This document shows, piece by piece, positions 1-23,479 of a stretch of 64,000 nucleotides of DNA; the stretch's first letter is position 1, and each line of letters begins with the position of its first letter. The stretch lies in NCBI GenBank assembly GCA_030603495.1, contig JAUVXR010000001.1:62001-126000 (forward strand). Direction: 5' to 3'. The position numbers were made by a program, and so were the translations under genes. The notes under the pieces are model-generated. The model was not told where the DNA came from. It was given only the letters and a program-made list of their open reading frames with translations, and made no database searches. This stretch comes from a bacterium. Lineage in GTDB: Bacteria; Armatimonadota; Zipacnadia; Zipacnadales; Zipacnadaceae.

Positions 1-2
1 CC

Positions 3-104
3 CGCATCTACGCCGATTTGGGCGCCTGGACAGTGGACGAAATCCGCCAGCGCCAAGGCCTCTCGCCGTTAGTAGAAGCTGGCCACGAGGTCGAGGCTGA
101 GTAG
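3..104 (+). CDS. Phage portal protein, C-terminal end only (partial)
   Basis: An open frame enters from the left edge and stops with TAG at 102-104. Its 33 residues include WTVDEIRQRQGLSPL, which resembles the conserved end of phage portal proteins (consensus roughly T-x-NE-x-R-x-x-x-GLPPL). Portal proteins form the dodecameric DNA gate at one head vertex, next to the protease and capsid genes. That is the gene order seen here. The stop overlaps the GTG start of the next gene (TAGTG), so the two are probably translationally coupled. The call rests on about 15 informative residues plus context. Confidence 0.55.
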   Translation, partial: RIYADLGAWTVDEIRQRQGLSPLVEAGHEVEAE

Positions 105-1384: not shown

Positions 1385-2257
1385 GTGAGTGAGGTGAGTC
1401 AGGAGAGTAAGTTCGCGGTGACGCTGCCGCTGGTTAAGGCCTGGCAGGACGAGCAGGGGCAGATGTGGGTCGAAGGGGTGGCCTCCTCGACCAGCCTGGA
1501 CCGCCAGCGCGAGCGCATGACCAGAAAGGCCATCGCCAAGATGCAGCAGTACCAGGGCATTGATCTCTTGCCCAGCCATCAGGCCGGGCCCCTGGAGGAG
1601 TTAGGGACGGTCGAGCAGTGCTGGGCGGATAACGACAGCTTCCGGCTGAAGGCGCGATTGGATGAGAGCAGCCCGCAGGCTATGCGGCTGTTCAAGCGCC
1701 TGGCCGAGGGCCGCCAGTACAGCCTGAGCGTGGGCGGGCGTGTGACGGGGGCGTACTGGGACTTTGACCCGGAGGCCGGCGCGCGCATCCGGCATATTGA
1801 CGACGTCACGCTGGATCACGTGGCGGTATGCCGGCCGCAGCAGGCAGCCAATCCCGATACCTACCTGGCGGCGCTGGCCAAGGCAGCCGAGCTGGTCACA
1901 GAAGATAGCCCGCCGCAAGCTGCCGACGACAACGAGGACCTCATCCGCCGACTGGGGCAGACGGCGCTGGAGGCCTGCCGACGGCTGTGGCCCTTCGGCA
2001 AGAGCACGACGGAAGCCGAGGTCAGGGCCGAACCGCAGGAGCCCGGAGAGCTGGAGACCCTGCGCGCGGAAGTGACCATGCTGCGCAAACAGCGAGCGGA
2101 AATGACTGTCAAGACGGCGCCCGCCGCCCCACAGCCAGACAGTGGATCGGCGGACCGAGACGTAACCGAACCGGAACCGGGCCGGCGGCAATCGCTGGTT
2201 GCCGAGCAGCGCCCGGGGACAGATAAGCAACGCAACTTCTGGAAAGGAGTGCTTTAG
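1385..2257 (+). CDS. Phage prohead maturation protease with scaffold-like C-terminus
   Basis: The N-terminal 165 residues match HK97/XkdF-type capsid proteases: VEGVASSTSLDRQ, then the probable catalytic His in LLPSHQAG and the probable catalytic Ser in YSLSVGG. Such proteases trim scaffold and capsid subunits during head maturation. The last 120 residues are charged and partly coiled-coil (ELETLRAEVTMLRKQ), as in scaffold domains fused to the protease. The GTG start at 1385 has a near-perfect Shine-Dalgarno (AAGGAGGTGA at 1371-1380). The stop immediately precedes the capsid ATG. Confidence 0.8.
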   Translation: MSEVSQESKFAVTLPLVKAWQDEQGQMWVEGVASSTSLDRQRERMTRKAIAKMQQYQGIDLLPSHQAGPLEELGTVEQCWADNDSFRLKARLDESSPQAMRLFKRLAEGRQYSLSVGGRVTGAYWDFDPEAGARIRHIDDVTLDHVAVCRPQQAANPDTYLAALAKAAELVTEDSPPQAADDNEDLIRRLGQTALEACRRLWPFGKSTTEAEVRAEPQEPGELETLRAEVTMLRKQRAEMTVKTAPAAPQPDSGSADRDVTEPEPGRRQSLVAEQRPGTDKQRNFWKGVL

Positions 2258-3202
2258 ATGGGAAACGACGAGATGCTGGAAAAGGCAATTGACACCTCCG
2301 ACATCGCCGACGGCGGCTTGCTGAATACCCAGCAGGCAAACAAGTACATCGAGATGACGGTAGACAACTCCGTCATGCTCAAAGAGGCGCGCGTGGTGCG
2401 GATGCGCGGGCCGGCGCAGGAACTGGACAAGATCGCCACGACCGGGCGCGTCAGCCAGCTCAAGACCGAGGGCGTAGCCCCCGAGACGCTGGCCGAGCCG
2501 GCCTTCGATAAGGTGAACCTCAGCTCCGTGGAGATCATCACCCCCTTTGAGATCACCTTCGAGGCGCTGGAAGACACCATCGAGCGGGGTAACTTCGAGG
2601 ATACGGTAATCTCGGTAATGGCCAAGCAGACCGCTACCGACCTCGAGGAGCTCGCGGCGCTGGGCGATGATGAGTCGGGCGATACCTATCTCGCCGGTCT
2701 AGACGGCTGGCGCGTGCTGGCCGATGACGGCCACATCGTGGACTTCGAGGGCGCGACGCTTGATCGCGCCGGCCTGTCGGCGATGTACCGGGCCCTGCCA
2801 GATGCGTACAAGCGCAATCACAGCGATCTGCGCTACTACTTCGCGCCCGCCGCAGTCCAGGACTGGAACGACACCTTCGCCGACCGGCCCACCGCCGCCG
2901 GCGATGTCGCCCTCACGGGCGGCGTGGCGCCTCCGTATATGGGCGTGCCGCTGGTGTCGGTGCCGGTAATCCCGACCAACCTGGAAGGGATCTCGGGCTA
3001 CGCGAGCGGCCCGAAGCTCAGCTTCGGTCTGCTCACACTGCGCGATAACCTGATCTTCGGCATCCAGCGCCAGGTCAGGATTGACCGCGACAAGGACATC
3101 CTGCGCGGAGTGAATATCTACGTCATCTCCACGCGGATCGCTGTAGCCTATGAAGAGAGCGACGCCGTGGTAGTCGGCATCAATCTGGGTCTGACTGCTT
3201 AA
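2258..3202 (+). CDS. Major capsid protein, HK97-fold family
   Basis: The 314-residue protein follows the protease directly, as major capsid genes do. It has the mixed alpha/beta make-up of HK97-type capsid proteins: an acidic N-arm with LLNTQQANKYIEM, a region ending in FEITFEALEDTIERGNFED that suits the E-loop and spine helix, and a beta-rich C-terminus with VPLVSVPVIP. No separate decoration gene precedes it. Its ATG lies directly after the protease stop with AAAGGAG upstream. The capsid identity is inferred from context plus general resemblance, not from a single diagnostic motif. Confidence 0.75.
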   Translation: MGNDEMLEKAIDTSDIADGGLLNTQQANKYIEMTVDNSVMLKEARVVRMRGPAQELDKIATTGRVSQLKTEGVAPETLAEPAFDKVNLSSVEIITPFEITFEALEDTIERGNFEDTVISVMAKQTATDLEELAALGDDESGDTYLAGLDGWRVLADDGHIVDFEGATLDRAGLSAMYRALPDAYKRNHSDLRYYFAPAAVQDWNDTFADRPTAAGDVALTGGVAPPYMGVPLVSVPVIPTNLEGISGYASGPKLSFGLLTLRDNLIFGIQRQVRIDRDKDILRGVNIYVISTRIAVAYEESDAVVVGINLGLTA

Positions 3203-3295: not shown

Positions 3296-3328
3296 GGCGG
3301 ATGTTGGTACCGCAACATTCGTCCCTAC
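3296..3328. repeat. Family E dyad repeat
   Basis: Imperfect inverted repeat AGGCGGATGTTG / CAACATTCGTCCCTA, related to the copies at 19139 and 19216. It lies just upstream of the GT9 start. Confidence 0.65.
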
Positions 3329-3352
3329 GGACGGCCACAGGACAGTTTCAGG

Positions 3353-4512: not shown

Positions 4513-4592
4513 CTTGCGGCAGTTATGCCCGGCAGGGGACCAGATATCGTTGCTACGGTACGGCACAGCATACAATAGGAGTGTTGAACACT

Positions 4593-7500
4593 ATGCACAA
4601 GCGGCATTTGTGGATAGACGTACGGGGAGCCAGTCTGTACTGGCCGGCTGCCGGCAACGTGGACGTATCGGCCACGGGAAAGGGCACGATAGCCTACTGG
4701 GCTAAAGCACCCACCCATTTCCAGTACCGCCGCGAGCAGTACTTCTGGCGCGCCTGGGTGAACGACAACAACTACGTGGGCAACCGTGGCCGGGGTATCC
4801 AAGTTGTCAGCGATGGCACCCCCTATTACTCCGGCACGATCAGTGACAATATTGCCGAGGAGGACCGCGGTCAACCCGAGTTCCACGTGTTCACTTGGGA
4901 TTTCGAGGCAGGGGTCATAAAGGCCTACTACAACGACGCCGTTGCGGCACACGACCCGGTCACCGGCGTACCCGCACCGTACGGCAGCCCCGTGGGCATC
5001 TATCTGGGGGCCGATTACGCTGCGGACTGGGCCAGCGTGCCCGTCTGGACCCAGTCCGCCCGCGATCAGTTGTTCTACGTGCTGGGCATCTGGGACGAGG
5101 TGATGTCGGAGACGCAGATTTCGGCGCTCTACCAGAAGGGCCACCGCACTTACATCTGCCAGCCCGCCGATGGCCCTGGCAATCTCACCTTCCGGCTGAA
5201 GTTCGATAACGGTCTAGCGGCGGACATCGCTGAAGGCGAGGGCGACTGGGCGCAGGACGAGGGCACGAGCACGGACCGGTTTTGCCTGATCGAAGACGGT
5301 ATCCGGACATTGGGTACGGCGATATATCCGATAGGAATACCCCGCCACGATGCCAGCGATGACGACCGTAAGCCGCTGCACGCGATCTGTCCGGTCTTCT
5401 ACGACACTAGCAGCAGGCGAGCCCACACCACTGATACCAACGAAACCAACTATGCCCGGCTGGTGCTGGACGGATTGGACCAGAAAAAGGGCGGCGCGGG
5501 GTACAAGCCCGTGCCCAACCCGGGGACCTATCGGCAATTAATCCACGTTCCCGACAACGGGGTAACCCCTGCGGGCTACGAGATGGGGATCGGCCCTATC
5601 GCCTATATCCACCATCCGTTCGCCGGCTCCGGGGTCTTCGACTGGGGGAGTGGTCGCAGTTTCGAGGTGGTTAGTGACGGCGCCAACTCTCCCAGCAGCT
5701 TCAAGACCAACCTGGGCGACTTCGCCGATGACTACTGGAACGGTGCGGTACTGACCTTCCTGAGCGGGAACTGCACTGGCCGACGGCTCTTCGTGACCGA
5801 TTGGGACAACACCACCAAGTTCATAACAGTTGAAAGCGCTCTTCCCGCGACGCCTGATGCCGATAGCATTGCGGTAGTCAACCCCTACTCGCGGATATGC
5901 GGCCAGAACGACGATCAGACGTTCCCCCAGTATTGTATCGAGGCCAGTCTCTGGGCGCGCCACGACAGCGCGCGGCATTTCGTGCTGCTCGAATGGCAAG
6001 TGGCGCCGCTGACCACGCCAACTCTCCGCTACGAAAAGGGGCGAACGGTCACAGTGCCCGGATGTCCTCAGGCGCAAGCGGGCCGCGGCTCCAACTACGG
6101 GACGTGGTACTGGGACGACGGCTACTACGATCAGCCGGGGGGCACTAACCTGGAGATCTGGCTGGAGAAGGTGGAGATCGGTGGCCCCCAGACTTACCAG
6201 ATATTGCGGCGCGATGCCCGCAAGCACGGCCCGGCCTTGGCCGACAACTTTATGCTAATGACCCGCGACAGCGACGGTAACCCCGGAGAGTCGGTGAAGG
6301 TCTGGCACCAGCAGAAGATGGCCTGGCACAAGCAACGGCCAACCAAGATCACCGACTACCAGACCGTCACCGCCGATCTCCAGGCACCAGGGACGTGGCG
6401 GCATACCACGGGCGCACCTATACCGATTGACTACGACGAAGAAAACGAGGTGGTTACCGCCGCCCTCTCGGGCGTGGACTCTGGCGGCGTCACGCGCCTG
6501 GGCTACATCCAGGGCCATTGGGATGAACAGAGTGGGCGGATTGCCTGGGCAGATGAGACACCGCCGCCGGGCAAGTCCAACCCGGTGCTGGAGACCTCGA
6601 CCCTGCGCTTCGAACGGGAGTCGGACTCACCTGAGTCTGGCGTGTGGGTTGGCGGCGTCATCGAGGCGATTGACGGCACCTGGTCGTTGATCTACGGGGG
6701 CGGGACCGATGCTGCTGACGAGACCGGGATGTATGTGCTCCACGGCGCGCCGGACCGCTGGTCCTTTGATCACGCCAGCCAGTTCGCTGGCGAGATCGTT
6801 ACCAAGGGTGGCAAGGGCACCGATCTGCTCATGCCGTGGGGTAGCGGCATCCAGCCGTGGGGCAACGCCCACATCTACGGACCAGTGCTGAACAACCCCT
6901 ATGCCCAGGCCACCGATCGGCAATACCTGGCATTCATGAGTGCCAAGACCATCTGCCACAACGGCACGGTCTGGAACGACACCCTGCGGCCAGTAGTAGC
7001 CTTCGCAGGTACCGATATCAAGTCGCTGGCCCCGCTGCCCTACAACCGGGAGATGTCGCCGGCGCCAGCACCACAGGCCCACGCTATCAGCGGCGACATC
7101 CTGGGCCAGGAGGACTGCATCGGCCTGCTCATTGAGTACACCCCGGGCTTTACCTGCGGTATCGGCCTGTATACCTCAGAAGAGGCTCTGCACTTCCAGG
7201 AGCTATGGCCGGCCAACGCCACCCTGGACGCGTTCATTCCCCAGGGCGAGCTGTCCGGCGAAGGCACGCGCTTGAGTCCCTGCCGGTCCTTCCGGCTGGG
7301 CGACAAGCGGATCTACTACTACTCATGGGGCGAATACCGCAACTTTGCCTGGTGTCGCTACAACGGGGAGACCTGGTACAGCCTGGCCGACGATGAAACT
7401 GACAGCTACCTGGAAACCTCGATCCTGGAAAGGCCCGAGGGCGGCTGGGGCGAGCTCTACTTCAATCTCGAGCTTAACGACGGGGATATCGAGGTGGAGG

Positions 7501-8024
7501 TGCTCGACCCGCAAACCGAGCTGCCCGTGGCCGGCTACGGCCGGGACGACTGTGACACCGTGACCAGCGGCCTGGTACAGCCGGTGACGTGGCAAAGCGC
7601 TGGTCTGGCCGAACTGACTGATGATTACCTGCGCTTGCGCCTTCACGTGACCCGGCCACAAGCCGAAGATGACTCTCCCCAGCTCTTTGCGTGGGAGATT
7701 CAGTCCAAGATTATCCAGTACCCATCGACCTCCGAGCTACGGGTCGAAGGTGAAACCAACCCGGCCAATGTCGTTGATCCCACCCCGACCTTCTCATGGA
7801 CGTACCACCACACGGCCGGCAAGCAGCAGACGGCGTATCAGGTCATCGTGGCCAGTAGTATGGAGCTGCTGGAAAGTAACGTCGGGGATCTGTGGGACAG
7901 CGGCGTGGTCCTAGGCAGCGAGACTAGCGCCACCTACTTGGGCGCAGCGCTTCAGGACCAGCAGACCTATTTCTGGAAGGTGCGCGTGCGCAGCTCTGAA
8001 GGAGTGTGGTCCGAACAATGGTAG
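4593..8024 (+). CDS. Giant LamG / propeller-like / GH78-type FN3 surface protein
   Basis: About 1143 residues. Residues 1-200 form a LamG/concanavalin-A-like lectin fold (FHVFTWDFEAGVIKAYYND, then FYVLGIWDEVMSETQISAL). The middle looks like the beta-propeller of glycoside-hydrolase-like proteins. A beta-sandwich near 960-1050 (ELYFNLELNDGDIEVEVLDP) precedes a terminal FN3-like domain. That last domain resembles the N-terminal domain of GH78 alpha-L-rhamnosidases (FSWTY...QTAYQVIVASS...DLWDSG...WKVRVRSSEG). No GH78 catalytic domain follows. The frame is open from GTG 4581, but AGGAG at 4577-4581 fits ATG 4593 best. A carbohydrate-binding or depolymerase role on the particle is inferred; an 11-fold larger than usual decoration or head-fibre protein is one option. 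Confidence 0.7.
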   Translation: MHKRHLWIDVRGASLYWPAAGNVDVSATGKGTIAYWAKAPTHFQYRREQYFWRAWVNDNNYVGNRGRGIQVVSDGTPYYSGTISDNIAEEDRGQPEFHVFTWDFEAGVIKAYYNDAVAAHDPVTGVPAPYGSPVGIYLGADYAADWASVPVWTQSARDQLFYVLGIWDEVMSETQISALYQKGHRTYICQPADGPGNLTFRLKFDNGLAADIAEGEGDWAQDEGTSTDRFCLIEDGIRTLGTAIYPIGIPRHDASDDDRKPLHAICPVFYDTSSRRAHTTDTNETNYARLVLDGLDQKKGGAGYKPVPNPGTYRQLIHVPDNGVTPAGYEMGIGPIAYIHHPFAGSGVFDWGSGRSFEVVSDGANSPSSFKTNLGDFADDYWNGAVLTFLSGNCTGRRLFVTDWDNTTKFITVESALPATPDADSIAVVNPYSRICGQNDDQTFPQYCIEASLWARHDSARHFVLLEWQVAPLTTPTLRYEKGRTVTVPGCPQAQAGRGSNYGTWYWDDGYYDQPGGTNLEIWLEKVEIGGPQTYQILRRDARKHGPALADNFMLMTRDSDGNPGESVKVWHQQKMAWHKQRPTKITDYQTVTADLQAPGTWRHTTGAPIPIDYDEENEVVTAALSGVDSGGVTRLGYIQGHWDEQSGRIAWADETPPPGKSNPVLETSTLRFERESDSPESGVWVGGVIEAIDGTWSLIYGGGTDAADETGMYVLHGAPDRWSFDHASQFAGEIVTKGGKGTDLLMPWGSGIQPWGNAHIYGPVLNNPYAQATDRQYLAFMSAKTICHNGTVWNDTLRPVVAFAGTDIKSLAPLPYNREMSPAPAPQAHAISGDILGQEDCIGLLIEYTPGFTCGIGLYTSEEALHFQELWPANATLDAFIPQGELSGEGTRLSPCRSFRLGDKRIYYYSWGEYRNFAWCRYNGETWYSLADDETDSYLETSILERPEGGWGELYFNLELNDGDIEVEVLDPQTELPVAGYGRDDCDTVTSGLVQPVTWQSAGLAELTDDYLRLRLHVTRPQAEDDSPQLFAWEIQSKIIQYPSTSELRVEGETNPANVVDPTPTFSWTYHHTAGKQQTAYQVIVASSMELLESNVGDLWDSGVVLGSETSATYLGAALQDQQTYFWKVRVRSSEGVWSEQW

Positions 8025-8674
8025 CCTACGGTGTCTTTAGCACAGGAAGCATCAACTCATACTGCAGCGTCGCCCAAGTGCTGGCGCTGCTGGTGGGCTA
8101 TGATCTCTCGCGCATCGGCGACAGCCCGGCCATCAACGACCGCATCGAGCAGTTGCTGGGCGGAACCCGCCAGGCCGTGGATACGCTGGCTGGTCACGAC
8201 TTCGCTTGGCATGCCGATGAGCAGATAACCGTTGACGGCAGCGGCACTGCTCGATTGCCGCTGGCGCCGCTGGGCATAGTGCCCCTGAGTGCGGTGCAGC
8301 AGATCACGATATCCGGGCGCGAAGTGCCGGCCGACGACTACGTGGTCTACGGCCAAGTCGGCGAGATTCGGCTGCGGCCTTCGGCCAGCATCGGTAGCTA
8401 TTTTCCCAGCGGCCTTCAGAACATCGAGCTGGTCGCAGACTGGGGCTACAGCCAGGTGCCGGGGGAAGTGAGTCTGGCCCAGGCCAAGCTCACTGCGGCC
8501 CAGGTCCTGGCCGAAGCAGCCGGCGAGACCCGCCAGACCGCCTCGGTGCGCATCGGTGACTACGCCGTGCACTATGCTCGCGAGGGCAAGTATGGCGGAG
8601 TAATCCAGCACTTCGCCGAGGAGGCTGCCGCAGCCCTGCGGCCCTATCGCGGTATGGATATGGCCGCGGTGTAG
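8018..8674 (+). CDS. Head-tail connector (adaptor) protein, gp6-like
   Basis: About 218 residues. The start (YCSVAQVLALLVG) and the helical organisation ending in a long helix (FAEEAAAALRPYRG) resemble the Phage_connect/gp6 adaptor family that docks on the portal. A beta-rich insertion sits in the middle (PLSAVQQITISGREVPADDY). The ATG at 8018 overlaps the stop of the giant protein (ATGGTAG). GTG 8006 is possible but lies one base from the AAGGAG. Position between capsid and tail genes supports the role. Confidence 0.65.
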   Translation: MVAYGVFSTGSINSYCSVAQVLALLVGYDLSRIGDSPAINDRIEQLLGGTRQAVDTLAGHDFAWHADEQITVDGSGTARLPLAPLGIVPLSAVQQITISGREVPADDYVVYGQVGEIRLRPSASIGSYFPSGLQNIELVADWGYSQVPGEVSLAQAKLTAAQVLAEAAGETRQTASVRIGDYAVHYAREGKYGGVIQHFAEEAAAALRPYRGMDMAAV

Positions 8675-8819: not shown

Positions 8820-9365
8820 ATGACTGATCTAAGCTTTCAAGAACTACTCAACCAAACCGCCAACCTGTCCCACCCCCAGATCGAAGTGGGCAACGAGCTG
8901 CAGGTGGCCCACCCTGTCTACGAGCTGCTTGCGGCGGGCGTGGCCATCCGGCTGCGGCCGGTCACCGCTGGACTTGATCGCAGCCTGCTGGGGCGGTTCC
9001 CCCAGACTACGGCCGTGGCGTACCTCCTGCCCACCGATCTGGCCGCCAACGACCGGCTGGCTCAGGTCACCGTGGCAACTGCGCTCGCCGAGTCAGTACA
9101 GGCAGAAAGCAGCGAACTGACGGTCATCTCCAGCTTCGGCATCAGCGTGGGCAGCCGCCTGCACCTGCGGGGCGAGGCAAATTGGGAAGAGGTCATCGTC
9201 GCCCAGGTGGACGGCGAGACAGTACAGTTAGCCGGAGCGCTGAATAACAGCTTCGCCGCTAGCGACGCAGTGGAGGTAGTGATCAGCTATGCCGTGCTCG
9301 GCGTGCTGGATGAATCCGCCGCCAGCCACCACCTCAAGGTCGCCCTCAAACGGCAAGAGGTGTAA
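8820..9365 (+). CDS. Putative head-tail joining protein
   Basis: A 181-residue protein in the connector region, with AGGGAG 8 bases before ATG 8820. The second half is beta-rich (ELTVISSFGISVGSRLHLRG and VIVAQVDGETVQLAG). It alternates short strands like the small beta-barrels of head-closure or stopper proteins. I did not recognise a specific family. The function is inferred only from its place between the gp6-like protein and the terminator-like protein. Confidence 0.45.
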   Translation: MTDLSFQELLNQTANLSHPQIEVGNELQVAHPVYELLAAGVAIRLRPVTAGLDRSLLGRFPQTTAVAYLLPTDLAANDRLAQVTVATALAESVQAESSELTVISSFGISVGSRLHLRGEANWEEVIVAQVDGETVQLAGALNNSFAASDAVEVVISYAVLGVLDESAASHHLKVALKRQEV

Positions 9366-9400
9366 GCAATCGCCCCCAGTGTCCGGCGTACTATCCTCAG

Positions 9401-9453
9401 CAGGACAGGCCTCGCGTCCGTCCCCTTCGACAGGCGAGACGCCTGTCGTACCG
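9401..9453 (+). repeat. Family A dyad repeat
   Basis: CAGGACAGGC..CCTTCGACAGGCGAGACGCCTGTCGTACCG; the second half keeps a perfect palindrome around GACAGGCGAGACGCCTGTC. It fills most of the gap between two phage genes. Confidence 0.85.
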
Positions 9454-9480
9454 CTGCTCCCTCAGGAGGCTAGTTGATAA

Positions 9481-10158
9481 ATGGACAATATGCTGCATTA
9501 CAACGAAATTGCCCGCGCGCTGCGGCTACTATGCCAGAGCGCGGTGGCCCTCGCCGAGGACACCGACGGCACCGACCAGATTTCGGTGGGCAGCAACAAG
9601 CTCTTTTCGCTCGGCGACCAGATTAGACTGGCAGACGACGATACCCCGGCCGAGCAATACGAAGTGGTCAGCTTGGTGGGTTTGACCGGCGTGCAACTCG
9701 ACGCGCAAGTCGCCGGGCAGTTCACGGTGGCTAAGAACGCGGTGATTCGCCTGGCGCAGCCGCTGCTGCCCGATCTTAAGTGGGTCGGGCAGGGCCGCCC
9801 GCTGGTCATGCCCCAGCCCCCGGATTTACAGTTTCCCGGCATCGTCGTCGAGCCTGCGGTGCTCGACCAGCCGATGTCCGAAGGAACGAACCGCAGCGTA
9901 CGGCAGGACTATCATTACCGGATCTACTACCTGCTGCGGCCCGCCGGGGCGGTAGCCAGCGAGGTTCTACTAGAGGACGCCGGCAAGCTCTTTGACCTAC
10001 TGATGCGCGATATCTACCTGGGGGGAAGCTGCTGGTACTCCCAGGTTGTGCGTGTGGATCCCGCCTCCCCCACCCAGCGCCACTTTGCCGACCGCGGCAT
10101 TGAGCTGAGCGTAGTGGAGATGGAACTGGTAGCGCGGCGGCTGGAGCCGATTGCGTAG
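9481..10158 (+). CDS. Putative tail terminator / tail completion protein
   Basis: A 225-residue protein with an N-terminal helix, a beta domain, and a second half reading RQDYHYRIYYLLRP...LLEDAGKLFDLLMRD...IELSVVEMELVARR. That strand-helix-strand order, with two basic strands flanking a helix, is typical of tail terminator proteins that cap the tail tube under the head. The gene lies just before the tail tube gene, the usual place. GGAGG is 11 bases before the ATG. An alternative is a minor tail protein. Confidence 0.45.
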   Translation: MDNMLHYNEIARALRLLCQSAVALAEDTDGTDQISVGSNKLFSLGDQIRLADDDTPAEQYEVVSLVGLTGVQLDAQVAGQFTVAKNAVIRLAQPLLPDLKWVGQGRPLVMPQPPDLQFPGIVVEPAVLDQPMSEGTNRSVRQDYHYRIYYLLRPAGAVASEVLLEDAGKLFDLLMRDIYLGGSCWYSQVVRVDPASPTQRHFADRGIELSVVEMELVARRLEPIA

Positions 10159-10300: not shown

Positions 10301-10372
10301 AAGGCAACATTCTTCTGATCGAACAATCACCCTGCGGACACGAGCGTCCGCACTGATAAGGTGGTGTCCAAT

Positions 10373-11281
10373 ATGTCAGTTGCACTTTCACACCAAGGCG
10401 CCTTCGGCTTCGCTCTGCAATCGGCCAAGGGCAACTACAGTCAGCCTGATACCTGGCTGCCCCTGATGCAAGCAGGCGGTCGCGGCCCGTCTGACACGAT
10501 CGAGCTCAAGCACAACTACGTCCCGCTGGACCTGGCCGACGTCAATGAGTACCAGAGCAAGTATTTCTCGGCAGGACAGTGGGCCGAGGGCAGCTTGCGC
10601 TTCCCGCTCCTTCCGGGCGTGGTGGCCAACCTGTTCTCGTGGATTCAGGCCCGCGATAGCTACAACCAGGGCAAGTGGGCCTCGGCGCTGATTGACTGCG
10701 TGCACGAGGTCAAGAAGCTTACTGACATGAAGGTGCGGCAGGCCACCTTTGACCTGATCAAGGGCGAGCCGGTGATCTGTACGCTGGAGGTCGCCGCCCT
10801 GAAGATGGAAGCCGGCTCCGTGCCCAGCCCCGACATGCCCACGGCGGCACCGTACATATTCCAGGAGGCCACTGTCGAGTTGGCCACCGGTGGCGGCGCA
10901 CTGGCCGAGGACGCCAACTGTGAGAAGATCCGCATCGTCGTGGACGCCCTGGTCGAGGATGTTGACGAGGGGCTGCGCCTGGCGGCGACCGCCGAGCCGG
11001 TACAACTCTATAACCTAGCCGGCGTGCGCTGCTGGGGGGCATTCAGCCGTGACTTCGTGGACAACGACGTCTTCGCCGACTTCGCCACCGGCACTGAGGC
11101 CGCGCTGACTATAACCCTCCAGCGCGGTGCTGCCACCGCCGAGTTGGAGTTGCCGCGCATTCTCTATCAGGCCGATGACCTGGGCCTGCCCGGCTCGAAC
11201 CGCCAGCGCATTATTGAGAAGGTGGACTTCCTGGCGCTCGGCAGCACCGACGGGCAAACCCCGCCAATAACACTCACTTAG
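10373..11281 (+). CDS. Tail tube protein
   Basis: A 302-residue protein. The opening (SVALSHQGAFGFALQSAKG) and the strand-rich repeats (EGSLRFPLLPGVV, ATFDLIKGEPVICTLEV, ALTITLQRGAATAELELPRI) resemble TTP-type phage tail tube proteins. These polymerise as hexameric rings that form the DNA conduit. ATG 10373 has AAGGTGGTG 6 bases upstream. The next gene is a frameshifted chaperone, the normal follower of the tail tube gene. The length suits a two-domain tube subunit. Confidence 0.65.
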   Translation: MSVALSHQGAFGFALQSAKGNYSQPDTWLPLMQAGGRGPSDTIELKHNYVPLDLADVNEYQSKYFSAGQWAEGSLRFPLLPGVVANLFSWIQARDSYNQGKWASALIDCVHEVKKLTDMKVRQATFDLIKGEPVICTLEVAALKMEAGSVPSPDMPTAAPYIFQEATVELATGGGALAEDANCEKIRIVVDALVEDVDEGLRLAATAEPVQLYNLAGVRCWGAFSRDFVDNDVFADFATGTEAALTITLQRGAATAELELPRILYQADDLGLPGSNRQRIIEKVDFLALGSTDGQTPPITLT

Positions 11282-11517: not shown

Positions 11518-11979
11518 ATGAGCCACCGGAAGGAACTCCAGGCCTGGATAATCAGCGCGGCCGGGCCGGAATGCACCCGGCGCTTTGAAGCACCTGTTGA
11601 GGTGCCCGGCTGGAGCCGTCCACCCTGGATTGAGGTGCGTCCGCTTACCCAGCGCGAGCGCCTTGAGCGCGAAAGCCTGGGCGTCTGCGACGAGTACTCC
11701 CTCGACGACGACGGCAGTATTAAGCGGGTTGTGCGACGCTATGACGCAGCAGCGATGGCCCGATACGACTACGAACACTGCCTGGTGGCATTCTGCCTGC
11801 CCCGGCGCAGTGCACAGGACGATCTGATCAAATGGCGCAAACCGGAGGAGCTCAGCGCCGAGGAGCTACTTGACCTGCTCCCGCCGGAGCTGGCCGAGTG
11901 GCTCGACGGGATCATTGACCAGGTCAACCTGCGCCGCCCAGAGGACCAGCAAACACTGGCAGCGGTAAAAAAAAGATAG
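11518..11979 (+). CDS. Tail assembly chaperone, short form (gpG-like)
   Basis: A 153-residue acidic protein directly downstream of the tail tube gene. It is largely helical (QRERLERESLG, DYEHCLVAFCL, SAEELLDLLPPELAEWLDG), as in gpG/XkdN-type chaperones that load on the tape measure. The reading frame ends in AAA AAA AGA TAG, and the run of eight A residues is a classical -1 slippage site. GAGGA lies 5 bases before the ATG. Confidence comes from the combination of position, frameshift signal and helical make-up. Confidence 0.7.
   Translation: MSHRKELQAWIISAAGPECTRRFEAPVEVPGWSRPPWIEVRPLTQRERLERESLGVCDEYSLDDDGSIKRVVRRYDAAAMARYDYEHCLVAFCLPRRSAQDDLIKWRKPEELSAEELLDLLPPELAEWLDGIIDQVNLRRPEDQQTLAAVKKR
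11967..11975 (+). promoter_or_regulatory. Programmed -1 ribosomal frameshift site
   Basis: Eight consecutive A residues (11967-11974) then G lie 2 codons before the stop of the short chaperone. In the zero frame they read GTA AAA AAA AGA TAG, giving an A-AAA-AAA slippery heptamer. Slipping back one base enters the frame of the next ORF with no intervening stop. Confidence 0.75.
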
Positions 11980-12350
11980 CCAGTGCCGCGCGCAGGTTGG
12001 CCCAGGGACTGCCGGTGCCAATGGCCGATCTGGTCGTTGAAGAGACCGGAACGGCGGCGACCCCGGCTTTGCGCGAGGGCCGCGACTTTCATAACCAGCG
12101 GGAATTCAAACGGCTGAGGCCGGCCTCCCGGGCTCAGCCAATGAGCGCTCCCTTTGTCGCCGAACTGGCCGCGGCAGTGCTAAGTGAACTGCGCATCTTC
12201 GAGCACACCGGCTGCCTGCCCGGTGGCACAAGTTGGTCAGAGCAGCCCGCCTGGCGCGGGGAACTGTGGCAAGCCTACTGGCAAGCGCAAAGAGACGCTG
12301 CTGAGTGGCTCGAACCGCATCACCCACGGGGAGATCAACGATATGACTGA
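11973..12350 (+). CDS. Frameshift extension of the tail assembly chaperone (gpGT-like)
   Basis: This 125-codon frame has no convincing start of its own. It continues the chaperone after a -1 slip, so the fusion product would be about 277 residues. It contains basic and helical stretches (REGRDFHNQREFKRLRPASR, ELWQAYWQAQRDAAEW). In lambda-like phages the G-GT fusion binds both tube subunits and tape measure. Its stop overlaps the next ATG by 8 bases. Confidence 0.65.
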   Translation, partial: KIASAARRLAQGLPVPMADLVVEETGTAATPALREGRDFHNQREFKRLRPASRAQPMSAPFVAELAAAVLSELRIFEHTGCLPGGTSWSEQPAWRGELWQAYWQAQRDAAEWLEPHHPRGDQRYD

Positions 12351-12912
12351 GGAGACCTCTCTTCTAAGTCGGCACATCGCCGGCCCATATGCCCGGGCAT
12401 TTTCTGGGTCACCGTGGTGGTCACAGCGGACGCTGCCGGCACGGCAGCCGATGCCGGCCCCACTGCCCGGCAGGAGTAGTCCTCCTCCCCCCTCCTTCCT
12501 GGCGCCGGCCGCTCCCCAAGCTCACCGATCCCCTCCCGTCGGTAGCTTGAGCGGCCGGCCGCCAGGAAGGGACAGGCAATGCCCTGGTCTCGACACAAAA
12601 CTGCCGAGGGGACCCTCCGCGGCACGCCGATACAGCAGTCATCCGCCCACACCGTCGCCCCAACTCAGCCTCGGCAGGCAGCCGATACTGGTGAGACCAC
12701 CCCTTGTGCAGGGCCAGGTCAGAGCAGTACAGCCCAGCACAGCAATAGCCGCGCCGGGAGACATCTGGCACGACTCGCTGCGAGTATCGCCGGCAGCGGG
12801 CGCGGGGGCAGCCGGCCATGTAATGCCACTTGCCGCCCGGCGCTCAGCGTCCGGCCAGTCCGACCTGCCCGAGGACACCGAATTGGACTGGGCTATCGAA
12901 TCATCTCGCTAG
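12343..12912 (+). CDS. Short proline/serine/arginine-rich protein in the tape-measure position
   Basis: A 189-residue frame starts at ATG 12343, overlapping the chaperone stop, with GGGAG upstream. It is low-complexity: Pro, Ser, Arg and Ala dominate (SSPPPPSFLAPAAPQAHRSP), with an acidic end (DLPEDTELDWAIESS). A tape measure gene of 600-2000 codons would be expected here, but only this fits before the next gene. Coding potential is uncertain because a second frame (12579-12986) is also open with a good Shine-Dalgarno. It could be a minimal tape measure, an unrelated linker, or a decayed region. Confidence 0.35.
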   Translation: MTEETSLLSRHIAGPYARAFSGSPWWSQRTLPARQPMPAPLPGRSSPPPPSFLAPAAPQAHRSPPVGSLSGRPPGRDRQCPGLDTKLPRGPSAARRYSSHPPTPSPQLSLGRQPILVRPPLVQGQVRAVQPSTAIAAPGDIWHDSLRVSPAAGAGAAGHVMPLAARRSASGQSDLPEDTELDWAIESSR

Positions 12913-12998
12913 CCACAGCAATTGTCGCGCATACCGGGCCACACCGACTTGCATGCTGGGCGATACGACAGGCCTCCCTGGAGTGAGCTTGCCGAACC

Positions 12999-13042
12999 CT
13001 CGCCTGTCCTTCATACCGACAGGCAAGACGCCTGTCGTACCA
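12999..13042 (+). repeat. Family A dyad repeat, partial
   Basis: Only the second palindrome (GACAGGCAAGACGCCTGTC, then GTACCA) and a trace of the first (CTCGCCTGTCC) remain, upstream of the 1052-residue tail protein. Confidence 0.8.
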
Positions 13043-13079
13043 ATCAAGGCAGCTTCTTTCGTGAAGGTGAGACCCAACA

Positions 13080-16000
13080 ATGGCGCTTGTTAATCCAGGA
13101 CTAGGCGACCGGCTCGAGGCAGCTGTCAGTGCGGTTCGCGCCAAAGAGGCGGCGGCGGGCGATAACCCAGCGCGACTAGCCCTGAGGAAAGCGCTGGTCA
13201 GCTACGCGCTCTTGATGATTATTGCCGTGCTGTGGCGGCCGGATGGAAGCAATGCGCTGGATTACGACGACGCGCAGCGCACCAGCGACGAGAACTTCTT
13301 CAAGCGCAAGACCGTGCATCTGCTATCGTGGTACCTGGCGCTGCTAGCCCAGGAGCCGGTGCGCACCTGGCCGGAGGTGAGCACGCTCGCCCAGTGCCTC
13401 CAGGCTCTGAGCACCAGCGAGGAGACCGACTGGTCCGGAGAGATAATCGAGCTGGGTGGCAAGCGAGGACTGACTGTAGACCGTACGCACGTCGCCGGCG
13501 GCCTCGCCAGCTTCGTGACGCCCGAGGGGACGGCCTCAGCGTACGTCTACCGCGCGAAGGACCCGGATGTAGCCCTGGACGGAGCGTGGGGCTACCTAGT
13601 TGAAGAGATAAGCGACGAGGGCGAGCTGCTGGGCCGCTATGCGCTGATGGTAGACGACGACTACTGGGGCCGGCGCATCCAGCCGCAAGAGTTCACCCCC
13701 GCTCCCCTGACTGAAGAACTGGTGATGGGCTACCGCCTGGAGGGCCAGATTCTGCACGATGGCGTCCCGCAAGACGAGGCTAATGTCAGCCTAGAGGTAA
13801 CACTGGACACCGCCGAGGATGGCGAGGTGGTGTTCTGGGACAGCGAGGAGTACAACCAACTGGTCTGGTCGCAGTCGCTGGAGACGTATGTACCCGGCTC
13901 AACGGTGCTGGCGCCAATTCGGACCTGGCCGGACGGAATGTGGAGCTTCATCGCACCGAAGGGCCACGGAGCCATCTACCAGCGCGAGGGCGACTACCGT
14001 GATGATGCAAGCGCGACCAGGTCGCAGCCCCTAAGTCGCTATGTCACGGAGATAAAGGCAGTCTATCGCGGGCGCAAAGCAGAAGTGGCGGAGGGCTGTC
14101 CGGCGATCATTGACATCACCAGCGGCGAGCTGACGATCCAGGCTACGCCCGACGCCTACCTGCGGGTGGGAACGCTGGACGACGCCGGCCAGACCTATCA
14201 GGTACCACCCTCGGGGACGGTGCAGATTACGGGCCTGCCTGCTGGCGAGCATAGCATCGTCCAGTTCAAGCGCACCGGCGGCGGCCAATGGGACCCGTGC
14301 TGGGGCTGCCCACGGGTGATCGCTGCGGTCGAACCGGGCGAGACCACCACGGTGCAGATGCCAGCGCTGGAGTACTATTCGTCGTCGGGAGCGGTTGCAT
14401 GTGGCCGGGTCTACCAGCGGCCGGGCATCCCGGCAGCGGGCATTGATATCACCATAGTGGACACCGAGTTCGCTGAGATCGTCGGAGTGGCGGCAACGAC
14501 CGACGGCGACGGCTATTGGTCGGTGGCGATTCCGCCCGATGGCCTGGGCGGGGACCTGTATATCCTGGACGAGACCTGGGGCAGTCTGCCGATAATAGGG
14601 TATCCCTATTCCGACGTAGTCCTGGGCGCGCGCGCTTACGCCGGCTGGACGGAAGACCTCAAGCCGGAATGCTGGCGCACCGGCAGCTACGGTCACCACA
14701 ACTTTCAGTACGTCCAGGACCAGATACACATCGAAGACAACGACACCGAGCAGAAGTATGCGACTGAGCCGGCCTCCCACGGCGGCTATGTTACAATAGA
14801 GACCTTGCCCAAGTACAAGTATATTTCGGACGTCCTACAACTGTTGATCTACGGGGCACAACTCAAGAGCTACGCGATTATCGCAGACGAGCAGGTATTG
14901 GATCCCGACTTTCACCTGCGGTCACAGTCGTTCCAGGACCAGCCCACGCTGGCCGGAGATTTCCGCGCTAGCGGCTACTACCCCGAGATGAAGCTCCTGT
15001 TCGGCGGCAAGTTGAAGGCCAACGCCGTGATGCATGGCAAAGAGCGCCTTGATGAGGATCAGCCGGAGGCGGCGCGGGTGGGGCTGGAGTTTGGCCGGTT
15101 GCAGCCCTATATGGAGCTGCGCCAGGCCGACAACGAGACTACGACCTTCAGCGATCTGCTCTGCCCCTATTGCGGCGGGCCGGCCCAGCGCGATCCGGGT
15201 CAGGCGGTGCCGCGAGGCTTTTGCCAGCAGTGCGCATACGTCTTCGGGCTTCCCCAGGCGATGGACTGCCGCAGTTTCCTACGCAGCCTTACGCTGGCCG
15301 CCCAGGCCGAACGATACCAGCACCGCCTGGTGGCAATAGGCACGAACGCCCGCAGCCAGCGGCGGGTTGACTACCACTGGCGCCCGGACCTCTACGACGA
15401 GACCGACGCTTTCGCCACCCAGTCCGGACCAGGGCAACTAACCAATGCGCCGCGCTGGGTCGCCAAGCACCTCGACCAGGTCGGCAATGGCCTGGGGCAG
15501 TTCGACGGCGACGAGAGCCCGCCGTACGTTCCGGGCCACGATCTGGCCTACTTCGGCGCGCTACCGTACATTGACCGCGATCTGGGTGTGGCCCAGTTCA
15601 AGCTGGCATTCCCCAGCAGCTACGAGGTGCCCACGGACTTTACGGTCGAGGTTGACTGCCAGCGGATTGACGGCGGGATTGAGACACTGACCGCCACCAT
15701 TCCCGCCGGCACGCGCGGGCCGTCGGTACTCGACCCGTTTGGGGAGGTAATCGCGCTGCGGCCTGTGCCCAAACTGCTGGCCGAGGACAAAGGCGACCCC
15801 TACCCGCAGTGCGGTTTCTACCAGGCAGTCACCGATATCCGCTTGGTCGAGCCCGAGACCGCACCGGGTGGCCGATTCACGGTCATCGCCGATGTGCCCT
15901 TCCTGGCGAATCCGGCGGGCGTGCTCATCGAGCACAACAAGGCCAGCTTTATGGCGCTGCAACTGATCGGCACTTCCGGGCATCCCCATCTGTTCGAGGA

Positions 16001-16238
16001 CGCCGTCGGCCAGCTTTTTCTCTTTGACGTGGTGGAAGGCAACATCCGGATGCACCGCCGCTCAGGGCTGACCAGCCCATGGCAGCCGCCGCGGTGGGTC
16101 ACCCGGGACGGACAGAGCGACTACCCCTGGGCGGACAAAGACATGCGCGGCGCCATTGTCCTAGCCTATCAGCGCAGTGGTGATAGCGTCAAGATACTGC
16201 GCTCCCGCGACGACGGCCGGAGCTGGGAGGAGGTTTGA
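13080..16238 (+). CDS. Large tail-tip or fibre protein with carboxypeptidase-regulatory-like domains and a zinc ribbon
   Basis: 1052 residues. Residues 1-145 are helical with a hydrophobic stretch (ALVSYALLMIIAVLW). The middle has repeated beta-sandwich segments like carboxypeptidase-regulatory domains (QVPPSGTVQITGLPAGEHS; GVAATTDGDGYWSVAIPPDG). C695, C698, C715 and C718 form a C-x2-C-x16-C-x2-C zinc ribbon. The end has an Asp-box (SRDDGRSW), and the next gene carries two more. ATG 13080 has AAGGTGA upstream. Its place between chaperone and hub genes suggests a tail-tip or distal-tail protein. It is not a tape measure. Confidence 0.6.
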   Translation: MALVNPGLGDRLEAAVSAVRAKEAAAGDNPARLALRKALVSYALLMIIAVLWRPDGSNALDYDDAQRTSDENFFKRKTVHLLSWYLALLAQEPVRTWPEVSTLAQCLQALSTSEETDWSGEIIELGGKRGLTVDRTHVAGGLASFVTPEGTASAYVYRAKDPDVALDGAWGYLVEEISDEGELLGRYALMVDDDYWGRRIQPQEFTPAPLTEELVMGYRLEGQILHDGVPQDEANVSLEVTLDTAEDGEVVFWDSEEYNQLVWSQSLETYVPGSTVLAPIRTWPDGMWSFIAPKGHGAIYQREGDYRDDASATRSQPLSRYVTEIKAVYRGRKAEVAEGCPAIIDITSGELTIQATPDAYLRVGTLDDAGQTYQVPPSGTVQITGLPAGEHSIVQFKRTGGGQWDPCWGCPRVIAAVEPGETTTVQMPALEYYSSSGAVACGRVYQRPGIPAAGIDITIVDTEFAEIVGVAATTDGDGYWSVAIPPDGLGGDLYILDETWGSLPIIGYPYSDVVLGARAYAGWTEDLKPECWRTGSYGHHNFQYVQDQIHIEDNDTEQKYATEPASHGGYVTIETLPKYKYISDVLQLLIYGAQLKSYAIIADEQVLDPDFHLRSQSFQDQPTLAGDFRASGYYPEMKLLFGGKLKANAVMHGKERLDEDQPEAARVGLEFGRLQPYMELRQADNETTTFSDLLCPYCGGPAQRDPGQAVPRGFCQQCAYVFGLPQAMDCRSFLRSLTLAAQAERYQHRLVAIGTNARSQRRVDYHWRPDLYDETDAFATQSGPGQLTNAPRWVAKHLDQVGNGLGQFDGDESPPYVPGHDLAYFGALPYIDRDLGVAQFKLAFPSSYEVPTDFTVEVDCQRIDGGIETLTATIPAGTRGPSVLDPFGEVIALRPVPKLLAEDKGDPYPQCGFYQAVTDIRLVEPETAPGGRFTVIADVPFLANPAGVLIEHNKASFMALQLIGTSGHPHLFEDAVGQLFLFDVVEGNIRMHRRSGLTSPWQPPRWVTRDGQSDYPWADKDMRGAIVLAYQRSGDSVKILRSRDDGRSWEEV

Positions 16239-16241: not shown

Positions 16242-16544
16242 ATGGTGCAGAGCTTATCGTATCCCATAGCTTTCGAGCACAACGGGCTGGTCTATTTGGT
16301 CGGCTACCGCGGTGGAGCACAGTATATCCGGCGCAGCGCCGATGGAGGCACAACGTGGCTGGCGTTCCGCGATGGGGTGACCGAGAGGCTGGTGGCCGCG
16401 CCCTCGGACGCAGATCGGGTGGCGTTGGTGAAGATGGATACACAGGGCTGCCGGCTGGTCGTGGGCGTGCCTAACTACCCCAACATTGATATCTACATCT
16501 CCGCCGACGACGGCGAGACCTGGGAGCTGGAGGCGTCAATATAA
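16242..16544 (+). CDS. Small Asp-box (BNR) protein
   Basis: 100 residues with two Asp-box motifs (SADGGTTW and SADDGETW) in strand-turn-strand settings, like blades of a sialidase-type beta-propeller. The preceding protein ends in a third Asp-box 3 bases upstream of this start. The two may associate to complete one propeller, or may descend from one split gene. GGGAGGAGG lies before the ATG. The stop overlaps the next ATG (TAATG). Confidence 0.6.
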   Translation: MVQSLSYPIAFEHNGLVYLVGYRGGAQYIRRSADGGTTWLAFRDGVTERLVAAPSDADRVALVKMDTQGCRLVVGVPNYPNIDIYISADDGETWELEASI

Positions 16545-18838
16545 TGGCACAGCGCGTATATCCGATCGCCAAGGTGGAGCTTCATGAGCCTGGGCGCCAA
16601 TACCGCGCGACCTACGACGGCTTCGGGCAGCACGACGTGCTCGCCGACCTGATCCACAACGGCCGCGTCACTGTCCAGTCCACCGACCTGGGCGCGCTGG
16701 GCCGTGCCGGACTCCAGGTGCCTTCGGCGATGCTAGTGGACCACCCCAAGGTCAATGCCGTCCTCGCCCGGCCCTTCTTAGACACCAGCCAGGCGATCGG
16801 TCTGGGGCACTTCACCACCGAAGGGGGGGCGTGGGTAGCCCTGCCCAACCACGGACTCGAAGGCGAGGTGCAGCTCTTCCAATATGATGGCACCGCCAAC
16901 GAAACGACGGGGGCGATAAGCAACTTCACGCTGCCAACTAACCCGGTCTTTGCCCTGTCGCTGTATCGGACCGACCCTCCCCCGGATCACGACTGGAGCC
17001 AGGCACCGCCGCATACCGAGATTCACTTCGGTGTCGCCGAGACCGATGAGTGGGCGCTGTGCCTGCCCTACGGCGCGCCGATGTTCGTGATGCGCCGCCA
17101 GGGCGGGGTCTGGTACAAGGCGGCCGACTCCGAGAAGTCCGTGAAGGTGCCGACGCTGGAAGGCTTCAGCGCCGGGCAGCGGCTACTGCTGTGGCTGGCA
17201 CTGTGGCGCGGGAAGATTGTGATCTCGACCGATGCCTTCGCCCAGGATATCTGGGTCTACGAGGTGCCCGGCTGGGAGCTACGTGTCCGCTGCGGGAAGA
17301 TCTCAGTCCTGCACAACGCCGGTCAGTTTATGTTCTCGTTCTTCCCGATAACTATGCCCGCCGCTGTGCTGGACAGTGAGCCGATCGAGACCGGCTACGC
17401 CACCCAGAACAGCACGGGCGAACTGGGGCTTAACTACCGGCAGCTCGCGGTCGTAAACGACTCCGGCATACCGCTACGCGAGGTGCAGGTGACCGATACA
17501 ACCGACACGCGCGAGGATCTCACCACCACCCAGCGGGCCTGGCAGGCGGCGATCGAGCCTTACTTGCACGCGCAGGAGGCCGTAGGGATTGATCCGGAGA
17601 CCGACCAGGCGGTTGATTTCCAGACGATGGTCTCCCCCCAGCTCTTCAGCGTGGGAATCGGGCAGTACCCGCAGGTGGACGAGCTCGGGACGCTACAGAA
17701 GGCGGATATCGCCGGTCACGTTGAGGCCACCGAGGGCGACCACTCCGACCGACTGCGCGGCGTGCGCTATCGCCTGGCGCTGGATAACCAGCTTGGCCAG
17801 TATGCCGACTTAGAAGAGTACCGCCGAGTCAACGTGCAGCTCGGCTGGAAGATGTCGGACGACTCCAATCAGCTTACCTCCACAATCTCCGGATATCTGG
17901 TCGCGCCGCCGCCGACGGTCTTTGGCGGCGGGGATACGGAGTTGAAGGCAACAGTACTGGACGGAATTGTCCGCCTGCGCGACGAGAAGTGCGACGGCCG
18001 CGCGCCGATCTTCGATAACTGGGCCGTAACAGATGCTTTTCACTGGGTGCTGGACCGCTGCGGGATACCGCGCAGCCAGCAGTCCCTGGAAGACACCGGT
18101 ATGCGGCTGAGCATGGGTGAGCCGGAAGAGCCGTTGTGGGCGGTCGAAGCAGGCCGCTCGTGGCTGGAATTACTCGAGGAAGTGGCCCGGTACGACCACG
18201 GGGCAGCGATCTTCTTCGATGCCGAGGGGAATTTCGTGAAGGCCTGCCCGCACTGCCGACAGGCCCGCACCGCCGCCAACGTCACGCAGCACGACGGGAC
18301 GGTGACCGGCGCGTGTGGCTCGACGGTATCGTGGTATCTGTACACGCGGGCAGCCGCAGCCCCTGATCCCGCCGAGCCAGGCGAGATCCTGGCCCTGCGC
18401 AAACCGCGGCTGAGCCTGTCAGCGCGTGATTATGTCAACTATGTTGCCGTCTGCGGGCTGGGCAAGGATGGCCGGCCGGTGCGCTCGGTGGTTTACGATC
18501 CGGCGTCACTGTACGACCCGAATTCAGACCAGTTCGTGGGCTGGCGCAAGATGGAAGTCCAGGCCCTGCCCAACTACACCACTCAGGCCGAGGTCAACCG
18601 CCTCGCCCAGGAGATCTTCGCCGAGCGGTCGCGCCGCCCGGAGTTCATCCATGTCCTGACGCCGCTGGAGCCACGAATGACCATCGGCCAGGTCCTGGCC
18701 GTACGCGGCGCAGAGCAAGTGGGTGCCGGTGGGCAGCTCTACCGTATCGTCGCCCTCCATCATAAGGTCCAGCGGCAGCCGGATCGCCTGGCTGTCACGA
18801 GCATCAAAGCCCGCTGGCTGGGTGAGGAGGAAACCTAA
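16544..18838 (+). CDS. Tail hub / tail-associated protein (gpD/gp27-like), with Cys motif
   Basis: 764 residues. The first 240 are beta-rich with HFGVAETDEW-type strands. The C-terminal 350 resemble hub proteins: ISGYLVAPPPTVFGGGDTELKATVLDG, WLELLEEVARYDHGAAIFF and DYVNYVAVCGLGKDGRPVRS, then MTIGQVLAVRG. These match late-control-D/Tal-type domains that build the trimeric hub at the tail tip. A zinc-ribbon-like C568-x2-C571-x19-C591 lies inside the hub domain; the fourth ligand is not obvious. Start overlaps the previous stop. Confidence 0.65.
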   Translation: MAQRVYPIAKVELHEPGRQYRATYDGFGQHDVLADLIHNGRVTVQSTDLGALGRAGLQVPSAMLVDHPKVNAVLARPFLDTSQAIGLGHFTTEGGAWVALPNHGLEGEVQLFQYDGTANETTGAISNFTLPTNPVFALSLYRTDPPPDHDWSQAPPHTEIHFGVAETDEWALCLPYGAPMFVMRRQGGVWYKAADSEKSVKVPTLEGFSAGQRLLLWLALWRGKIVISTDAFAQDIWVYEVPGWELRVRCGKISVLHNAGQFMFSFFPITMPAAVLDSEPIETGYATQNSTGELGLNYRQLAVVNDSGIPLREVQVTDTTDTREDLTTTQRAWQAAIEPYLHAQEAVGIDPETDQAVDFQTMVSPQLFSVGIGQYPQVDELGTLQKADIAGHVEATEGDHSDRLRGVRYRLALDNQLGQYADLEEYRRVNVQLGWKMSDDSNQLTSTISGYLVAPPPTVFGGGDTELKATVLDGIVRLRDEKCDGRAPIFDNWAVTDAFHWVLDRCGIPRSQQSLEDTGMRLSMGEPEEPLWAVEAGRSWLELLEEVARYDHGAAIFFDAEGNFVKACPHCRQARTAANVTQHDGTVTGACGSTVSWYLYTRAAAAPDPAEPGEILALRKPRLSLSARDYVNYVAVCGLGKDGRPVRSVVYDPASLYDPNSDQFVGWRKMEVQALPNYTTQAEVNRLAQEIFAERSRRPEFIHVLTPLEPRMTIGQVLAVRGAEQVGAGGQLYRIVALHHKVQRQPDRLAVTSIKARWLGEEET

Positions 18839-22026: not shown

Positions 22027-22323
22027 ATGCTCGAGGCATTGTCATCTTCGCTCAGAAATGTGCTGTTGCCAGCCATCAGCACCATCGTCGTCGGCTTCAT
22101 TTGTCAGTTAGTACGCCAGTACATCCAGCGTATCAAAGACGAACAGCTCCGTGAGTTCCTGGAGCGGCTGGTCAACGCCGCCGAGCAGATCTATGGCCCG
22201 GGCGAAGGCGCCGCCAAATACGAGTATGTCGTACGCCAGGCGCAGCAACGCGGCTACCGGATAAGCCGGGCTGATGTCGAGGCCGCAGTCTACAACATTA
22301 ACTCAGCAAAAGGATGTGAGTAA
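22027..22323 (+). CDS. Phage holin, LLH family
   Basis: 98 residues: one N-terminal membrane segment (LLPAISTIVVGFICQLV), then a charged helical domain with LVNAAEQIYGPGEGAAKYEYV and a C-terminal helix ending DVEAAVYNINSA. This is the LLH-type holin (Phage_holin_6_1) pattern. It would perforate the inner membrane to release or activate the endolysin two genes downstream. AAGGAGG precedes the ATG. Confidence 0.85.
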   Translation: MLEALSSSLRNVLLPAISTIVVGFICQLVRQYIQRIKDEQLREFLERLVNAAEQIYGPGEGAAKYEYVVRQAQQRGYRISRADVEAAVYNINSAKGCE

Positions 22324-22326: not shown

Positions 22327-22686
22327 ATGACCAAGTACCTGGCTACAGTGACGCTTATCCTGGCGCTGTGCGCCGCGGGCTGGGCGGATAACTTTCTCGA
22401 AGAGGCCGGCGAGGCGATCACTGAGACCGTGGAACTGTCCCTGCTCAGCGGAACGATCGGCTGGGGCGCTGGCGCGTACTGGCCGCTCTATGAAGTTGAG
22501 CAGATCGAGACGACCCTCGGCCCGTTCATTGCCTTCGGCGATCAGCTCATCGCTGCCGGTCTGGGCGCGAAGTTCGCTGTTGAAATCCCTATGTTGGACA
22601 ACTATGTTGACTTTGTGGCTGCCGGCGGTGCGTACAAGCACGATGACCTGACCTTTGAGGTCTGGGTCGGCAAGACTATCAAGTGA
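22327..22686 (+). CDS. Small exported protein in the lysis module
   Basis: 119 residues with a signal peptide (MTKYLATVTLILALCAAGWA, cleavage near residue 20) and a mature part of amphipathic strands (VEIPMLDNYVDFVAAG, DLTFEVWVGKTIK). It starts 4 bases after the holin stop. A small outer-membrane or periplasmic role in lysis, functionally like a spanin, is possible, but no spanin motif (lipobox or coiled coil) is seen. Confidence 0.5.
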   Translation: MTKYLATVTLILALCAAGWADNFLEEAGEAITETVELSLLSGTIGWGAGAYWPLYEVEQIETTLGPFIAFGDQLIAAGLGAKFAVEIPMLDNYVDFVAAGGAYKHDDLTFEVWVGKTIK

Positions 22687-22768
22687 GCCAACACAACGGC
22701 CAACGATGGTAGGCAGGAGGGATGACTTCCTGCCACCGGCTCGGAACCGAAGGCGCGAGGTACTGCAC

Positions 22769-23479
22769 ATGCCAACTGAACAACAACTATCCCTCCCGGA
22801 GTGCCAGCAACATATCCGGGAAGTGCCGGTCAGCCGGGCCATTCGCTCGGTGATCGTCCACCATACCTGGCGGCCTACCGCCTCCAACTACCGCGGTCTG
22901 AGCACTGTGCGCGCCGTGCGCCAGTATCACATGAAGCAGCGCGGCTGGTCGGACAATGGCTATCACATTATGATCGGCCCCAGCGGTGACATCTTCCTGT
23001 GCCGGCCCATAAGCCGCGCCGGCGCGCACTGTCGCGGCCAGAACCAGGACTCCATCGGCCTATCCTACATCGCAAACTTCGACAGCGAAGACCCCGCGGA
23101 CTATCCAGGAACCGAGATTGGTCAGCAGGTCGTCGCCGCCCTGCTCCAGCGCTTCTCACTCACCCCCGACGATATCCATTTTCACCGTGAATACGCCAAC
23201 AAGACCTGCCCGGGCCGGAATCTGCACCTGGACGAATACCGCCATCAGGTCGAACTGCGTACGTCCGAACAAGCCGGCGACATCAAGGTCGTCCTGCTCC
23301 CGGGCAGCCAGGTCATCGCCTGCCGCCCGCGACTGGAAGACGGCACCACCCGCGTGGACCTGCGCCCGCTGGCCACCGCCCTGGACTGCGAAGTCTACGA
23401 CCACCTCGCCGACCAGGGGAAAGTCTACCTGCGGAAGAAGGCAAAGACGCTCCGCGATTTGCAGCATCTCTCCGAGTAG
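22769..23479 (+). CDS. Endolysin: N-acetylmuramoyl-L-alanine amidase with C-terminal stalk domain
   Basis: 236 residues. The Amidase_2/PGRP domain (20-155) has zinc ligands in VIVHHTW (H31/H32), H139 in IHFHREY and C147 in TCPGRN, and Tyr65 in NGYHIMIG. It cuts the amide bond between MurNAc and the stem peptide. Residues 172-223 form a copper-amine-oxidase N-terminal-like stalk domain (VVLLPGSQVIACRP...LATALDCEVY), as in host exported proteins in this window. ATG 22769 is preferred over the longer frame from 22655, which runs through the upstream gene's end. It is the last phage gene. Confidence 0.85.
   Translation: MPTEQQLSLPECQQHIREVPVSRAIRSVIVHHTWRPTASNYRGLSTVRAVRQYHMKQRGWSDNGYHIMIGPSGDIFLCRPISRAGAHCRGQNQDSIGLSYIANFDSEDPADYPGTEIGQQVVAALLQRFSLTPDDIHFHREYANKTCPGRNLHLDEYRHQVELRTSEQAGDIKVVLLPGSQVIACRPRLEDGTTRVDLRPLATALDCEVYDHLADQGKVYLRKKAKTLRDLQHLSE

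Follow-up and report, generated by a model that had tools for sequence, protein, structure and literature searches.

Tape measures are described as long helical rods. Those of lambda (gpH) and of T5 and DT57C (pb2) are long and helical and are encoded after the frameshifted G/GT chaperones. In the T5-like phage DT57C, the C-terminus of the tape measure is a helix in the tip hub (PMC10713586). The gene transfer agent (GTA) RcGTA has a very short tape measure of about 216 aa and a tail of five tube discs, and the C-terminal domain of the protein is directed towards the baseplate (PMC7296036). This protein, g11 of Rhodobacter capsulatus, assembles into a rod-like trimer; its N-terminal helix is 113 residues long.

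The locus considered here is a phage-like gene cluster in a 2.67-Mb MAG of Candidatus Zipacnadia (Armatimonadota). The cluster sits inside a 276-kb contig, and most of it falls in the window, which is the whole stretch of 64,000 nucleotides that was analysed. It spans TerS/TerL to an amidase gene ending at 23479, and the order is TerL, portal, protease, HK97 capsid, a 1147-aa protein, adaptor, tube, G/T chaperones, the 189-aa frame, tail tip, hub, holin and amidase. TerL (phrog_2, 2.4e-20) and TerS lie further upstream of the portal, outside the window. The features in the window are the following.

1..104, + strand: portal, 3' end (phrog_12, 5.5e-60); the gene begins 1137 bases before the window
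1385..2257, + strand: head maturation protease (phrog_80, 9.1e-6)
2258..3202, + strand: HK97-type major capsid protein (phrog_1623, 4e-80; PF05065)
4581..8024, + strand: 1147-aa structural or adhesin protein (C-terminal Ig_Rha78A_N; syntenic in relatives)
8006..8674, + strand: putative head-tail adaptor, a weak match (phrog_477, E 0.13; synteny)
9481..10158, + strand: candidate tail terminator (position and synteny; no family match)
10361..11281, + strand: tail tube protein (PF18906, 3.5e-8; 55-82% identity in 12 relatives)
11518..11979, + strand: tail assembly chaperone G (position, frameshift, synteny)
11967..11974, + strand: A8 slippery run, -1 frameshift (found again in most relatives)
11997..12350, + strand: chaperone T part, -1 phase (ORF listing; synteny; the -1 phase recurs in relatives)
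12343..12912, + strand: slot protein of 189 aa, predicted to be disordered, where a tape measure is expected (its start overlaps the T stop by 8 nt; slot frames in relatives; dN/dS)
12496..12568, + strand: hairpin within the slot gene (constrained in genus g1 at the nucleotide level)
12997..13044, no strand: dispersed genomic repeat between the 189-aa gene and the tip gene (about 15 genome copies)
13080..16238, + strand: 1052-aa tail tip or adhesin protein, its N-terminal domain predicted to be helical (structure prediction, fold search)
16544..18838, + strand: 764-aa candidate tail hub (phrog_1887 tail, E 0.038; synteny)
22027..22323, + strand: holin (phrog_6918, 4.9e-8)
22655..23479, + strand: amidase endolysin (phrog_1493, 4.5e-22)

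The cluster also holds three glycosyltransferase genes (104-1168, 3218-4477 and 20058-21113), which, among the loci compared, lie inside the cluster only in host family f1. The dispersed repeat is about 45 bp long, and it also occurs elsewhere in the genome, within or next to other genes. The predicted structure of the 1052-aa tip protein is of low confidence, and a fold search with it returned adhesin- and lectin-like matches only.

The 189-residue frame had been described in the first-pass annotation as the only one that fits between the frameshifted chaperone and the tail tip gene, and the ORF listing bears this out. The gene thus sits exactly where a tape measure gene is expected, between the frameshifted tail chaperones and the tail tip genes. 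Its product is not the long, mainly alpha-helical or coiled-coil protein that a tape measure would be, and the frame has no match in Pfam, PHROG or NCBIfam, tape measure families included. The other large ORFs that were examined in the window do not include a tape measure. The same annotation had raised the case of relatives with a full-length gene at this spot. A long gene is absent from the slot in all relatives compared, among them the divergent copy of G025 (L121) and the phylum-level relative G047. Instead, a short P/G/R/A-rich frame is present wherever the slot is sequenced (22 of 22 slots), mostly starting at the T stop or within about 20 nt of it. The 22 slot proteins compared, the window's included, were trimmed to 120-319 aa, with several start codons chosen, not shown.

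A structure prediction of the frame, which the first-pass annotation had proposed as a check, gives mostly disorder. In the AlphaFold model (five-row alignment) the mean pLDDT is 52.8 and the sole helix is formed by residues 179-188, so that the protein is predicted to be intrinsically disordered except for a C-terminal helix on its conserved end. That end carries the motif [ILVM][DEA]xxR in 18 of the 22 slot proteins (0.14 expected from composition), a count in which related rows are not independent, although the motif is found in host families f1, f3, f5 and f6. It is missing from G034, G042 and G041, the three genomes whose slot ORFs have diverged furthest.

The comparison with the known systems cuts both ways. 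Like RcGTA g11, the slot protein is very short, is encoded before the distal tail genes of a vertically inherited phage-derived cluster, and would go with few tube discs; unlike g11, it is predicted to be disordered apart from one short C-terminal helix. Searches of solved structures with the tube profile or the hub gave nothing useful, and there was no RcGTA chain among the matches. With lambda gpH and T5/DT57C pb2 it shares the slot after the G/GT chaperones, and its predicted C-terminal helix lies where the T5-type proteins have the one held in the hub, but it is short and without a family match. Since the C-termini of the RcGTA and T5-like tape measures are at the baseplate or tip, a tip anchor for the slot protein is a reasonable inference.

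We therefore favor, with a probability of roughly 0.58, the reading that the slot gene encodes a short disordered tail protein that replaces the tape measure in a vertically inherited, GTA-like cluster of Zipacnadia. We infer that it is a miniature disordered tape-measure substitute or a tail plug, with its anchor in the tip of a short tail. The C-terminal helix would dock in the tail tip, the G/GT chaperones would cover the disordered part, which fills the lumen, and tube rings would stack over it, so that the tail would come out very short; the protein might then be ejected ahead of the DNA. The flexible chain would act as a nucleator or plug more than as a rigid ruler. For scale, 28 nm is about the span of 189 aa if helical at 0.15 nm per residue, and an extended chain would be longer, this being arithmetic on assumptions. 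Any particles probably have very short tails that are built in an unusual way. Of the three options offered in the first-pass annotation, we favor two: tails that are extremely short, or a protein that measures in an unusual way. What speaks against our reading is that known tape measures are helical, and the window's slot protein is 17% proline.

A rival reading is a real gene whose product does not measure, being an assembly factor, a lumen plug or an ejected protein that binds DNA or the envelope, with tail length set otherwise or with intrinsically few rings. The disorder would suit such a role, as would the positive net charge in 19 of the 22 slot orthologs. The length of the protein shifts fast: within one genus, close species have 140 to 203 aa, and this would be unusual in a strict ruler. 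In G023 (L065, around 8870-9970), G, T and the slot protein are one 360-aa open frame with no frameshift, so that the slot protein is fused with the chaperones. However, the exact tape measure slot and the conserved C-terminal helix are what would be expected of a tip-anchored lumen protein, and we consider the non-measuring role unlikely.

The third option of the first-pass annotation was that the gene was lost and that the particles have no functional tail. In favor of tailless or defective particles, the slot is without a long gene in every relative, and G009 has an interrupted capsid gene and lacks G, so some copies may be decaying. However, the short gene is conserved across the class and is under purifying selection, and the tube, the G/T chaperones with their -1 slip, the tip and the hub are conserved along with it across relatives, the tip having a dN/dS of about 0.03-0.10 among four species of one genus. 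The loss of the tape measure is thus unsupported, and we regard it as improbable.

As a whole, the cluster is single copy and keeps its gene order among relatives. Each genome has one match to the capsid and one to the tip (split matches aside), and their identity drops as kinship drops. A tree of eight concatenated proteins requires five changes for six host families, which is the minimum, and each multi-genome family forms one clade; this fit, with GTDB family labels serving as the host tree, supports vertical inheritance. The tube profile was matched in 27 of 46 genomes of the class. The location inside a 276-kb contig is consistent with an element endogenized in the host genome; a single integrase-like gene was seen nearby, 3 kb upstream, and its matches to XerC/XerD models stay below the cut-offs. 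Among the published criteria for gene transfer agents (PMC9662315), which also concern full endogenization, packaging of random host DNA, an inability to package the element's own genome and the delivery of DNA, we find structural proteins derived from caudoviricetes (TerL, portal, HK97 capsid and tube) and, by the eight-protein tree read against the GTDB labels, vertical inheritance and co-diversification with the hosts. The cluster thus appears to be a vertically inherited GTA-like element. Searches of phage records with the tube and tip found no match, and the best identity of the capsid to phages is 36% or less. The IMG/VR loci have, where checked, the same lengths as MAG contigs, and thus look like those contigs and not like free phages.

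Several individual copies display other patterns. For example, G035 (L063) and G040 (L070) carry a near-identical element in different assigned genera, owing to either recent transfer or mis-binning. The divergent tail module of G025 (L121:6419-11208, - strand) has a tube-like gene, a G with a slippery run and a 189-aa slot frame ending EVLRER; its layout is the same as in the window, and its tip homolog has 28% identity. G041 has a second tube copy, an orphan. A published Zipacnadia paper mentions neither phage nor gene transfer, and a spring metagenome study reportedly names both Armatimonadota and gene transfer agents.

It could also be argued that the slot is a non-coding spacer in which a frame stays open by chance, the DNA being GC-rich, and the hairpin accounts for the conservation. 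The stop-free run of 186 codons compares with a Markov mean of 143, and 15.5% of shuffles are equally long, so its length is not unusual at this GC content. The codon usage is not host-like, with a negative codon score and a GC content that is flat over codon positions. A single sequence alone therefore cannot prove coding, and the comparison does. Scored by codon usage the frame would be non-coding, a result kept as a caution and overruled by the relatives. In four species of the same genus, the slot gene has a dN/dS of 0.34-0.64, whereas shifted frames (as pN/pS) give 0.91-1.56, and the gene is under weak purifying selection (chaperone G, 0.14-0.28). The length differences among these four closest species are multiples of three, with no net frame change, including a 63-codon in-frame difference in G006; in the G006 pairs the aligner split the difference into two gaps (2 + 187, or 2 + 178), each sum being a multiple of three.

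The hairpin shows in genus g1 as an 81-nt segment of the slot gene that folds strongly in five of the six species (z -2.4 to -6.4) and weakly in G001 (z -0.9). It is single copy, has no match in Rfam and is conserved at all codon positions, with a synonymous pS in the four close species of 0.04-0.16 inside and 0.23-0.48 outside. When it is excluded, the pN/pS of the slot gene is still 0.37-0.67, and of the six close pairs five fall under the 1% permutation level while the sixth has p 0.06; among five wider pairs, that of G000 with L090 (0.90) is not significant. The coding signal that remains, the C-terminal end conserved across families and the length changes that preserve frame make a spacer very improbable. 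On the comparison of these sequences, the 189-codon frame is a real gene, neither lost nor broken.

A tape measure elsewhere in the genome, which the first-pass annotation had said would count against its claim, does formally exist: contig C42 of the source assembly (L117, G000:C42:1-5597) encodes a canonical PF10145 tape measure. Like the slot gene, it comes after a pair of short chaperone-like frames, but it is 916 aa long, of a known family and part of a different phage, a 5.6-kb conventional siphophage fragment. That it works in trans for the cluster, as its presence in the same assembly might suggest, is most improbable, because it has its own chaperone-TMP-hub order and PF10145 (E <= 1e-5) turned up in four of the 61 genomes searched, none of them among the 14 other genomes of the host's family.

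If the short disordered protein does replace the tape measure, then the needs of a short tail, namely a tip anchor and chaperone binding, are separated from those of a rigid ruler. A broader version, which we put forward tentatively and would not bet on at even odds, is that a tail tube may be assembled with no helical ruler, on a disordered, fast-evolving chain that has a C-terminal tip anchor only, and that this arrangement has been kept for the age of a bacterial class in a domesticated GTA-like particle. With this cluster, an uncultured phylum gains a candidate lineage of gene transfer agents.
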